DNA from: Gemmatimonadota bacterium
GTDB taxonomy: Bacteria > Gemmatimonadota > Gemmatimonadetes > Gemmatimonadales > Gemmatimonadaceae
Length of the DNA stretch: 64,000 nucleotides
Direction of reading: 5' to 3'
Assembly (NCBI GenBank): GCA_027307165.1
Contig: DAHUXM010000016.1
Span: 1-64,000 of the forward strand
Shown here: positions 28,119 through 31,402 of the stretch, one piece after another
Position numbering within the stretch: position 1 is the stretch's first letter
Layout: every line of letters starts with the position of its first letter
Made by a program: the position numbers and the translations under genes
The notes under the pieces: model-generated
What the model saw: only the letters and a program-made list of their open reading frames with translations
The model's database searches: none
What the model was told of the DNA's origin: nothing

Positions 28119-30422
28119 TCAGATGGTCGGCTGCAGCGACTGTCGAACGTGCGCTGCGGCCTGCACTATCGCGCTCATGCTGGGGCGGACTTCCTCCCAC
28201 CGGCGCGTCTTGAGACCACAGTCGGGGTTTACCCAGAGCTGATCCGGCGTGAGCACGGTGAGCGCTTTGTTGAGATGCTTCTCGATCTCGGCAGCGACTG
28301 GAACCGCGGGGGAGTGTACGTCGTATACTCCGGGCCCAATTCCATTCGGATAGCTCACGCGAGCGAAGGTGTCGAGCAGCGTCATGTCCGAACGCGACGT
28401 CTCTATCGAGAGTACATCCGCGTCCATTCGCGCTACTGCATCGATGATGTCGTCAAATGCCGAGTAGCACATGTGCGTGTGCACCTGCGTTTCGTCGCGC
28501 ACGCCCGATGACGCAAGGCGAAAGGCATTCACCGACCACTCCAGGTACTCGTGCCGGTCTTCTGTCTTGAGCGGCAAACCCTCGCGGATCGCGGGTTCGT
28601 CGATCTGGATGATGCGTATGCCCGCCGCTTCCAGATCGGCAGTTTCGTCGCGAATGGCGAGCGCGAGTTGCCGGCATGTTTCGTCGCGCGGCTGGTCGTC
28701 ACGAACGAATGACCATTGCAACATCGTCACCGGTCCGGTGAGCATCCCCTTGACGGGTCGCGACGTGAGTGACTGGGCGAATGCTGTCCACGTCGTAGTC
28801 ATCGCGCCGCCACGGGAGATATCGCCATAGATGATGGGCGGCTTCACACAGCGCGAGCCGTAACTCTGGACCCACCCGCGTTGCGTGACTACAAATCCTG
28901 CGAGGCGCTCGGCGAAGTACTCCACCATGTCATTCCGTTCGAACTCGCCGTGGACGAGCACGTCGAGACCGACTTCTTCCTGGAACCGAATTGCGTCTTC
29001 GATCTGCGAGCGCAGGAACGCATCGTAGTCTGACGGAGCCATGTGCCCGGCCCGCGCCGCGGCGCGCGCGCGACGCAGTTCGGCGGTCTGTGGAAAGGAG
29101 CCGATTGTCGTCGTCGGAAGTTGCGGCAGTTTGAGCGCACGTTCCTGTTGCGTGCTGCGCGCACGATAGGGCGTACGGCGAAACATGTCCTCACTCACCG
29201 CGCGCTGCCTCTCCTGCACCGCCGCATCGTGCGCACGAGGCGACGCTCGACGTTGGGCCAGTGCGGCGCGCGCGTCCGCGAGCGCATCGGTGATTGCGTC
29301 AGGCATCGTGTCCGGCCCGTGCTGCAGCGCGGCCGAGAGCGTTGCTACCTCGTGCAGTTTCTGCGTACCGAAGGCCAGCCAGCGACGCACGTCAGCATCC
29401 AGCGCCGTCTCATTATCCAGATCCACGGGGACATGGAGCAGCGAACACGAAGGCGCGACCATGACGCGATGCGGACCGAGCGCGTGAGTCGCCCGCGTCA
29501 GGAGTCCAAGTGTTGCATCCAGGTCTGCACGCCATACGTTGCGTCCGTCCACGACGCCGAGCGAAAGCACGAGGTTGCGTGGTGCTCGTTCCAGCGCCGC
29601 AGAGAGCTGGCCGGGCCCGCGCACGAGGTCGAGATGTAGCGCCGCGACTGGGAGTCCAAGTGCGGTTGGCAGATTTGCGCCAAGGTCGCCGAAGTACGTC
29701 GCGACGAGTACGCGCGGACCGGCGTCACCGAGGCGTTCGTACGCCGCCTGGTACGCGCGCAGGGTTTCGCGCGGGAGGTCCAGCACCAGACAGGGTTCGT
29801 CCAGTTGCACCCACTCGGCGCCCGCGCCAGCGAGCAGCTCGAGCATTTGCTCGTATACCGGCAATACCGAGTCGAGCAACGTGAGCGGGCCCGCCGATGT
29901 ACCGCACATCCTGCCAAGCAGGAGAAAGGACACCGGTCCGAGAATTACCGGACGCGTGGTGATGCCGAGTGCCTTTGCCTCCAGAAACTCATCGATCGGT
30001 TTGGTGGACGCGAGATGAAAATCCTGCGCGGGCTCGAACTCGGGGACGATGTAGTGGTAGTTGGTGTCGAACCACTTCGTCATCTCCATCGCGGGAATCG
30101 AAGATGCGCCGTCGGCCAGGCCCCGCGCCATCGCGAAGTAGCGATCCAGATTGCTCAGGCCGGCGCGATGAGCGAATCGGCGGGGAATCGCGCCGAGCAT
30201 GACTGCTGTATCGAGCACATGGTCGTCCAGCGAGAAGTCATTCGACGGAACGTGCTCGATGCCGGCGTCCGCCTGAAGCTGCCAGTTGGTGCGACGAATA
30301 TCGCGAGCAGCCGCTGCGAGATCGTCCGCAGTCGAGCGTCCGGCCCAGTAAGCTTCGAGCGCGCGCTTGAGCTCGCGATCGGGTCCGATACGTGGGAAAC
30401 CTAGGTTCGACGCGATGGGCAT
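28119..30422 (-). CDS. metE: Cobalamin-independent methionine synthase
   Basis: Full-length (767 residues) MetE, which methylates homocysteine from 5-methyltetrahydropteroyl-triglutamate. The N-terminal barrel begins ASNLGFPRIGPDRELKRALEAYW; the C-terminal barrel carries the zinc ligands in HTHMCYSAFDDI and NPDCGLKTR, and the substrate region GDISRGGAMTT. It is divergent from a MerR-family gene across a 170-base region with a 20-bp dyad and a 13-base element repeated before the DUF542 gene. No B12 or SAM riboswitch motif is seen upstream. Confidence 0.95.
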   Translation of the reverse strand: MPIASNLGFPRIGPDRELKRALEAYWAGRSTADDLAAAARDIRRTNWQLQADAGIEHVPSNDFSLDDHVLDTAVMLGAIPRRFAHRAGLSNLDRYFAMARGLADGASSIPAMEMTKWFDTNYHYIVPEFEPAQDFHLASTKPIDEFLEAKALGITTRPVILGPVSFLLLGRMCGTSAGPLTLLDSVLPVYEQMLELLAGAGAEWVQLDEPCLVLDLPRETLRAYQAAYERLGDAGPRVLVATYFGDLGANLPTALGLPVAALHLDLVRGPGQLSAALERAPRNLVLSLGVVDGRNVWRADLDATLGLLTRATHALGPHRVMVAPSCSLLHVPVDLDNETALDADVRRWLAFGTQKLHEVATLSAALQHGPDTMPDAITDALADARAALAQRRASPRAHDAAVQERQRAVSEDMFRRTPYRARSTQQERALKLPQLPTTTIGSFPQTAELRRARAAARAGHMAPSDYDAFLRSQIEDAIRFQEEVGLDVLVHGEFERNDMVEYFAERLAGFVVTQRGWVQSYGSRCVKPPIIYGDISRGGAMTTTWTAFAQSLTSRPVKGMLTGPVTMLQWSFVRDDQPRDETCRQLALAIRDETADLEAAGIRIIQIDEPAIREGLPLKTEDRHEYLEWSVNAFRLASSGVRDETQVHTHMCYSAFDDIIDAVARMDADVLSIETSRSDMTLLDTFARVSYPNGIGPGVYDVHSPAVPVAAEIEKHLNKALTVLTPDQLWVNPDCGLKTRRWEEVRPSMSAIVQAAAHVRQSLQPTI

Positions 30423-30468: not shown

Positions 30469-30516
30469 CGACACCGGACGCTTCCATCAACTTCGGCAGA
30501 TCGGTTGTACTCCGGC

Positions 30517-30536
30517 GTGACGGATGTCACCGTCAC
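30517..30536. promoter_or_regulatory. 20-bp dyad between metE and the MerR gene
   Basis: Perfect 7-bp arms GTGACGG and CCGTCAC flank ATGTCA. Its position in the divergent region, 94 bases from metE and 55 bases from the MerR gene, suggests an operator. Which gene it controls is unknown. Confidence 0.5.
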
Positions 30537-30591: not shown

Positions 30592-31011
30592 ATGACTATC
30601 GGTGAGTTGGCCGAACGCGCGGGCGTGAATGTCCAGACCGTGCGCTACTACGAGCGCCGCGGGCTGCTGGCCAAACCGCGGCGGACGGACTCCGGGTACC
30701 GCACCTACACAGACGTCACGCTCGACCGCCTGCGGTTTATCCGCCGCGCGCAGGAGCTTGGTTTCACGCTCTCGGAAATCGGAGAGTTGCTGGTGCTGCG
30801 GCTCGATCCACACACGACGGCGTCGACAGTGAAGGCGCGTGCGGAGGCGAAGATCGCGGATGTGGACCGTCGCATCCACGATCTCGAGCATATCAAACAC
30901 GCGCTGGTACACCTCGCCGGAAGATGCCATGGTGGGCGCGGGCCGCTGGGCGATTGTCCGCTGCTCGATGCATTGGGACCATTGAGCAGCGCCGGCAGCA
31001 CCGTAGACTGA
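30592..31011 (+). CDS. MerR-family metal-type transcriptional regulator
   Basis: A 139-residue MerR protein. The DNA-binding domain reads MTIGELAERAGVNVQTVRYYERRGLLAKPRR with the second wing TYTDVTLDRLRFIRRAQELGFTLSEIGELL. A long dimer helix follows, then a C-terminal loop RCHGGRGPLGDCPLLDAL with two Cys ten residues apart, as in MerR, ZntR and CueR metal sensors. The helix position that holds Cys82 in mercuric MerR is not Cys here, arguing against mercury. No metal pump is adjacent; the nearest candidate target is the DUF542 gene, whose promoter has MerR-like geometry. Confidence 0.85.
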   Translation: MTIGELAERAGVNVQTVRYYERRGLLAKPRRTDSGYRTYTDVTLDRLRFIRRAQELGFTLSEIGELLVLRLDPHTTASTVKARAEAKIADVDRRIHDLEHIKHALVHLAGRCHGGRGPLGDCPLLDALGPLSSAGSTVD

Positions 31012-31117: not shown

Positions 31118-31315
31118 CTACTGTGAGCGCGCGACGGTATGCAGCTCGCTGCAGAGCGCATCTCTCTTCGAACCCGCTACCTCCTCCACCGTCATCATCG
31201 CACCGCAGCACGTGTCGACGCCGAAACGGTTGAACACCGCCATGGCAGCTGGATGCCGCCGAATCACTTCGTCCACAGTCCATCCGCAGTCGATTTCGAG
31301 TTCTGTCGCAGGCAT
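31118..31315 (-). CDS. Stand-alone DUF542 (ScdA/RIC N-terminal) protein
   Basis: A 65-residue protein consisting only of the DUF542 domain: TVDEVIRRHPAAMAVFNRFGVDTCCGAMMTVEEVA. In RIC/YtfE/ScdA iron-sulfur repair proteins this domain, with its CCGG-like pair (here CCGA), precedes a di-iron hemerythrin domain that is absent here. Stand-alone versions occur next to redox and nitrogen-oxide genes. It converges on the MerR gene and has a MerR-like promoter. GGAG lies 11 bases before the ATG. Role in Fe-S cluster stress is inference. Confidence 0.8.
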   Translation of the reverse strand: MPATELEIDCGWTVDEVIRRHPAAMAVFNRFGVDTCCGAMMTVEEVAGSKRDALCSELHTVARSQ

Positions 31316-31354
31316 GATCGGTTACTCCATATAAAGGTCCAACGTGGGTGTACA

Positions 31355-31370: not shown

Positions 31371-31402
31371 ACGATACAGTCTGTACCTAGATATAAGGTC
31401 AA
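31371..31402 (-). promoter_or_regulatory. MerR-type promoter with long spacer and internal dyad
   Basis: On the minus strand, TTGACC (31402 to 31397) is followed after 20 bases by TATCGT. The dyad ACCT-N7-AGGT (31385-31399) begins inside the -35, exactly as in MerR/CueR/ZntR targets where 19-20 bp spacers are twisted open by the regulator. An 11-bp palindrome TACAGACTGTA follows. It should drive the DUF542 gene. Confidence 0.55.

Follow-up and report, generated by a model that had tools for sequence, protein, structure and literature searches.

A conserved MerR-type promoter ahead of a stand-alone DUF542 gene in Gemmatimonadota and a probable regulon shared with a zinc-free ribosomal protein S4

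Regulators of the MerR family act on operators that lie within unusually long promoter spacers of 19-20 bp, and MerR, CueR and ZntR activate transcription by distorting the DNA. The closest described relatives of the gene considered here are the RIC proteins (YtfE, ScdA and NorA/DnrN), in which DUF542, with its vicinal cysteine pair, forms the N-terminal dithiol domain of a protein induced by nitric oxide (NO) (PMC9052748, PMC9268430). The ric regulators named in the parts of this literature drawn on here are NsrR, DnrD, NorR, SrrAB and others, not MerR. A further point of comparison is offered by the C- paralogues of zinc-binding ribosomal proteins, known from Zur and sigma-R regulons and from C+/C- pairs of S4, in which a copy free of zinc ligands stands beside a main copy with four cysteines. 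Such copies are usually explained by zinc starvation acting through Zur. The sections of a 2009 survey of S4 consulted here report no Zur site near the Cys-free S4 paralogues, describe their regulation as seemingly different and leave it open (PMC3087516).

The window analysed here is a stretch of 64,000 nucleotides from a Gemmatimonadota genome of 3.7 Mb (G000, the source genome), in which a stand-alone DUF542 gene is preceded by a MerR-type promoter (Table 1). As the original prediction had it, the merR gene lies on the far side of the DUF542 gene, with which it is convergent, and no transporter gene stands beside the DUF542 locus.

Table 1. Coordinates of the features at the DUF542 locus of the window.
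Feature	Position	Strand	Basis
MerR-family regulator, 139 aa, Cys112-x9-Cys122	30592..31011	plus	translation, Pfam, NCBIfam, alignments
Stand-alone DUF542 (ScdA_N) protein, 65 aa, vicinal Cys36-Cys37 (DTCCG); ATG at 31315	31118..31315	minus	translation, Pfam, profile
Likely ribosome-binding site GGAG of the DUF542 gene	31325..31328	minus	read from sequence
MerR-type promoter	31371..31402	minus	sequence; PWM from other genera; 12-site alignment
-10 TATCGT	31376-31371	minus	read from sequence; DUF542 ATG 55 bases further on
Conserved operator dyad TTATATC-TA-GGTACAG	31381..31396	minus	12-promoter alignment; genome pattern scans with controls
-35 TTGACC	31402-31397	minus	read from sequence

The TTGACC element and the 20-base spacer, which had been predicted as marks of MerR-family control, occur in the window site (spacer TTATATCTAGGTACAGACTG, minus strand, 5' to 3'). 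A spacer of this length recurs in 12 aligned sites and falls in the range of the family. Comparison of these 12 promoters from nine related genomes establishes both promoter and operator, as they align without gaps over the promoter and diverge in the flanks:
TTGACYYTNTANYNNGGTAYA
The dyad originally proposed, ACCT-N7-AGGT, is literally present (31399-31396 and 31388-31385), but it is not the conserved operator; it is centred at spacer position 5, off-centre by 3.5 bases, and its register is not kept in the 12-promoter alignment. The dyad that recurs in the nine genomes, together with the 20-bp spacer, is CTATACC-N2-GGTATAG (consensus CTATAcC-N2-GGTAyAG), centred at spacer position 8.5. In the window itself the copy is imperfect, with 4/7 base pairs matched.

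A weight matrix (PWM) trained on five homologous sites, all outside the window's genus, gave the DUF542 promoter 32.1 bits. The runners-up across the 64 kb scored 11.1 bits (the reverse complement of the same site) and 5.7 bits, and the maximum over 20 Markov-1 simulated 64-kb windows was 12.2 bits. A degenerate pattern, designed with the window site already known, matched just two locations genome-wide (3.7 Mb) when up to three mismatches were allowed, the DUF542 promoter and one other, which is matched on both strands because it is palindromic; the reversed control pattern had no match in the whole genome. When the pattern was loosened and at most two mismatches were allowed, each of the nine genomes yielded one to three places, several of them reverse readings of one palindrome and one a further place on C3 of G002, and the controls yielded none. 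Scanning for generic sigma-70 promoters with spacers of 16-18 nt gave none between 29500 and 33500, as expected for an over-long spacer of MerR type. Judged by these comparisons, the promoter is real and more than a chance match, and its control by MerR is a well-supported prediction.

MerR orthologues were found at E <= 1e-41 in 9 of 288 genomes of the order, all with at least 69% identity. In the phylum sample, where 50/395 genomes had matches at 1e-28, identity drops from 69% to 62% (G222) and then to 57% or below. DUF542 is the next gene to MerR in seven of the nine orthologous loci, and in eight of nine the operator heads the gene row that holds DUF542. The two genes are convergent in the source genome and in G002 and lie on the same strand in G048, G241, G367 and G441. 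In G174 they share one open reading frame, which could reflect a fusion, a second gene that starts within the frame or an error of assembly. In G001 they are on different contigs, with the operator still kept at DUF542. In a control set of 60 genomes, a MerR-like gene lay within 1.5 kb of 3 of 26 DUF542 matches, all three of the same orthogroup.

Several observations count against the link. In G029, MerR and the operator are kept, but the operator heads a DUF6448-MerR row, and the DUF542 gene has no operator. In the congener G003 (89% complete), a close MerR and an S4 paralogue are both missing, and the DUF542 is more distant. The same operator class also serves mer-type MerRs and is therefore not specific to the MerR-DUF542 orthogroup; the source genome has no other close MerR. 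Taken over all genomes compared, the link between MerR and DUF542 is strong, and the MerR-type control originally predicted for DUF542 gains support because operator, spacing and gene linkage are all conserved across several genera from two families.

Two gene families recur near these loci. In G367 (L116 4441-5742) and G441 (L268) a threonine-dehydratase-like gene lies between the operator and MerR-DUF542, the former product having a PLP fold and an ACT domain. A DUF6448 gene, with a start of the HCDxMDGPVV type, stands behind the MerR operator in four genomes (L119 1001-1690, L121 5623-6222, L101 1949-2767 and L072 5103-5768); a literature search on DUF6448 found no paper.

The window MerR has the winged HTH and DNA-binding domains of its family (Pfam MerR_1, 2.4e-23; MerR-DNA-bind, 1.7e-20), and its nearest solved structures are MerR, CueR and CadR. 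It falls below all NCBIfam equivalog cut-offs, scoring 132 bits with mercury MerR (TIGR02051, cut-off 150.85), 131 with CueR (TIGR02044, 147.4), 126.6 with ZntR (167.95) and 102.6 with CadR-PbrR (151.45). The two-cysteine loop without the mercury-specific cysteine that had been read from the sequence is indeed there. Cys112 and Cys122 are invariant in the nine aligned orthologues, and the mercury position, threonine in the window, is never cysteine; we take the ligand positions in question to be 77 and 79 in CueR/ZntR/MerR numbering. Like CueR, a sensor of Cu(I)/Ag(I), the window MerR has a residue other than cysteine at position 77 and two loop cysteines. It differs in its C-x9-C loop, two residues longer than the C-x7-C loop of CueR, in having threonine instead of serine, and in having no adjoining copper ATPase. 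Autoregulation of merR in the window was considered and rejected, the best PWM score upstream of the gene being -9.5.

In a tree of 104 aligned relatives, the nine orthologues form a supported clade (99/93) with G204 and G296. The mercury cysteine (Cys79) is absent from all nine and from the whole 11-member clade and present in 79 of the 104, and its loss across the tree was not a single event (12 label changes). The window MerR shares fold, operator class and 20-bp spacer with the regulators of mer operons. Relatives of about 50% identity within the phylum, its nearest outside the group, keep the mercury cysteine, share the operator class and have mer-type neighbours, namely MerT (3/3 tested) and HMA proteins (2/2 tested); one more small neighbour gene was assigned to no family on testing. 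In contrast to these, the window MerR lacks the mercury cysteine, has DUF542 and an S4 paralogue as its apparent targets and is not accompanied by mer genes. The original reading was incomplete in that clade members or near-outsiders carry the operator ahead of DUF6448. This is the case within the clade in G204, where a P-type ATPase then follows, and in G296; outside it, sites precede DUF6448 and MerR in G222, where an HMA-like protein and broken ATPase-like frames lie further downstream. With cysteine-bearing mer-type near relatives and altered targets in the clade, this seems to be a mercury-type regulator that lost its mercury specificity and changed its targets. When named genomes were searched with the alignment of MerR proteins, 80 loci came up (best identity 58%), none of which matched the DUF542 HMM.

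The original prediction of DUF542 as a target of MerR stands, but DUF542 is not the sole target suggested by the comparison. The other operator site in the source genome (C9:4434, minus) has 7/7 base pairs matched and heads an operon for a 74-aa small CC protein, beginning MAWKTECCGWDVW, and a 204-aa paralogue of ribosomal protein S4. The main S4 (C25) has four zinc-ribbon cysteines, none of which is present in the paralogue. In G002 the same operon is headed by the operator. In G001 the operator leads a single row made up of a small protein related to the 74-aa one, MerR and an S4 paralogue whose start is blurred by unread bases; this arrangement ties MerR to both targets. This locus thus resembles the C- paralogues described elsewhere and differs from them in its MerR-type operator, common to the S4 paralogue and DUF542. 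Close matches to the Cys-free S4 paralogue occur in 17/395 genomes, of which three, all of the window's genus, have the operator within 1.5 kb, so that the operator-based link to S4 is limited to one genus. G204 supplies an independent connection between the two genes: there, DUF542 and a Cys-free S4 are divergent neighbours around TGTGACTCACGTCACA, which matches the HcpR motif wTGTGAnnnnnnTCACAw as given in the portion of the source used (PMC1274295), and a Crp/Fnr gene lies in the DUF542 row.

No family was found for the small CC protein of the S4 operon. Its matches beyond the genus look like chance, the one in G130 lying inside what reads as a tryptophan-synthase-like frame. Other Cys-free S4 paralogues have small CC proteins of DUF6686 type ahead of them (L225, L227 and L234), one of which exceeds the Pfam cut-off while two fall short of it. 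Literature searches found no paper on DUF542 together with MerR, only unrelated papers for MerR with ribosomal protein S4 and operator, and none recognised as describing a MerR-DUF542-S4 regulon.

The DUF542 protein of the window matches Pfam ScdA_N with E 1.3e-6 and 28.4 bits, under the gathering score of 32.5; the domain in G174 passes with 39.0 bits. A profile of its relatives matches the solved structures of ScdA (4.5e-11) and YtfE (4.3e-4), and Cys36-Cys37 is invariant in the alignment and aligns with ScdA. The protein thus shares the domain and its vicinal cysteines with RIC proteins but, ending at 65 aa, lacks their hemerythrin-like di-iron domain. A leader hairpin acting as a regulatory RNA was rejected, as the folds of the window and G002 leaders did not outdo those of shuffled sequences (z +1.3 and +1.1); for G001 z is -1.6. 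Near the locus, only tRNAs exceeded the Rfam threshold. The leader of a second DUF542 gene (G000 C7, L025 about 1640-1850; L026, L027, L014) shares across four genomes of the genus a conserved block, CAGGGAAAnnCTGACACCGAT, together with GTCAG/CTGAC arms; it may be a leader element of a new type, and Rfam at gathering scores gave no match for it.

We consider it probable, from genome comparison, that MerR governs a small regulon comprising DUF542 and the zinc-free S4 operon, with the DUF542 site as an activated promoter; this regulon would control the response to metal-centre damage. Binding by MerR, activation, signal and regulon function are what we infer in the following scheme. A MerR homodimer would bind CTATACC-N2-GGTATAG within the 20-bp spacer and keep RNA polymerase silent. 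On capture of a thiophilic signal by Cys112 and Cys122, the DNA would be distorted so that the -35 and -10 elements line up, and MerR would switch on the adjoining DUF542 gene and, in trans, the operon of the small CC protein and the S4 paralogue. Because agents that attack thiolate centres would destroy Fe-S and Zn-Cys sites, the cell would make a RIC-type dithiol protein and exchange its zinc-ribbon S4 for a copy that cannot be poisoned. The shared signal suggests a stress response that guards metal centres and rebuilds ribosomes together. More tentatively, this former mercury regulator without its mercury ligand could be the master of a metal-centre damage response, with DUF542 as a dithiol protein that talks back to MerR and with ribosome remodelling set by thiol or NO attack, not by zinc starvation.

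A thiophilic metal is the slightly favoured candidate for the inducer, though short of a probable one, and is pointed to by the MerR family, the two-cysteine loop, the mer relatives and the ATPase in G204. NO or thiol oxidation is a plausible candidate as well, and anything else is unlikely. Metal and NO both attack Zn-Cys and Fe-S centres, so both would fit DUF542 and S4 as targets. It is accordingly a real possibility that the system is primarily a nitric-oxide response, in which Cys112/Cys122, either unaided or jointly with DUF542, would be the site of action of NO or nitrosothiols, nitrosylated Fe-S centres would be repaired and the NO-sensitive zinc-ribbon S4 would be replaced. The HcpR-type match between DUF542 and S4 in G204, with a Crp/Fnr gene alongside, is consistent with this, as are the genes downstream of MerR-DUF542 in G048, which encode an Mrp/NUBPL Fe-S carrier, a COX1-like protein and a protein with DUF1858 and DUF2249. 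Against it, the nearest MerR relatives are mercury-type regulators, the operator in G204, of the same clade, precedes DUF6448 and a P-type ATPase, and we know of no two-Cys MerR of the window type that senses NO directly. The NO-induced RIC/YtfE proteins, whose N-terminal domain is DUF542 (PMC9052748, PMC9268430), argue for it, and DUF1858 and DUF2249 are also the domains of DrpB in nitrate-respiring Thermus, according to the part of that report used here (PMC6282519).

The in-frame arrangement in G174 raises the question of whether DUF542 works mainly in signalling with MerR, as a dithiol relay, a metal donor or an off-switch, and less as an effector; we regard this as doubtful. The genes overlap or abut in G367, G241, G441 and G048, and the CC pair of YtfE is described, in the material consulted, as passing electrons to its di-iron site (PMC9052748). 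The single frame is known from one incomplete genome, where an assembly error is possible, and keeps an internal ATG after GGAG; MerR and DUF542 are unlinked in G001, and operon partners need not touch. A role in zinc economy, with MerR sensing zinc status and the S4 paralogue serving under zinc limitation like the Zur-controlled ribosomal proteins, is improbable. Metal sensors of the MerR type switch genes on when metal is in excess, not when it is scarce, and we know of no role of DUF542 in zinc uptake. The paralogue does lack the four zinc ligands kept by the main S4, and other such paralogues are zinc-limitation genes, but the same survey, as far as it is used here, found no Zur site near those of S4 (PMC3087516). 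That the promoter-like sequence is a product of chance or a relic outside MerR control in the source strain agrees with the imperfect dyad but is highly improbable given the gap in PWM score (32.1 against 12.2 bits for the simulated best), the conservation of 12 sites and the retention of the site in G002, where DUF542 is 94% and MerR 97% identical.

With a small MerR regulon as the preferred reading, the finding would grow from a single stand-alone gene to a set that includes a zinc-free S4, and would bear on how Cys-free S4 paralogues are regulated, the point left open in the survey sections cited above (PMC3087516). As one MerR-type operator is common to the S4 paralogue and a protein of the iron-centre-repair type, damage to thiolate metal centres becomes a testable alternative trigger to zinc lack. 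The regulon would also suggest what stand-alone DUF542 proteins do, and would be an example of a mercury-type regulator taken over for new targets.

Two further elements were seen near merR. A CRP/HcpR-like palindrome, CGTGACGGATGTCACC, lies at 30516-30531 of the window, 76 bases upstream of the MerR start, and is near-identical in G002; similar boxes occur near genes of the same set in G204, G222 and G048. CRP-type palindromes were present in 7 of 31 stretches upstream of DUF542, S4 and MerR genes (9 of the 31 end points are off a start codon), and since the seven include one site counted for two stretches and a further pair that is near-identical, they are no more than suggestive. Divergent from merR, at 28119-30422, lies a gene that reads as metE, for cobalamin-independent methionine synthase, an enzyme family that depends on a zinc-thiolate centre; its position beside merR is a possible further link to thiol stress.
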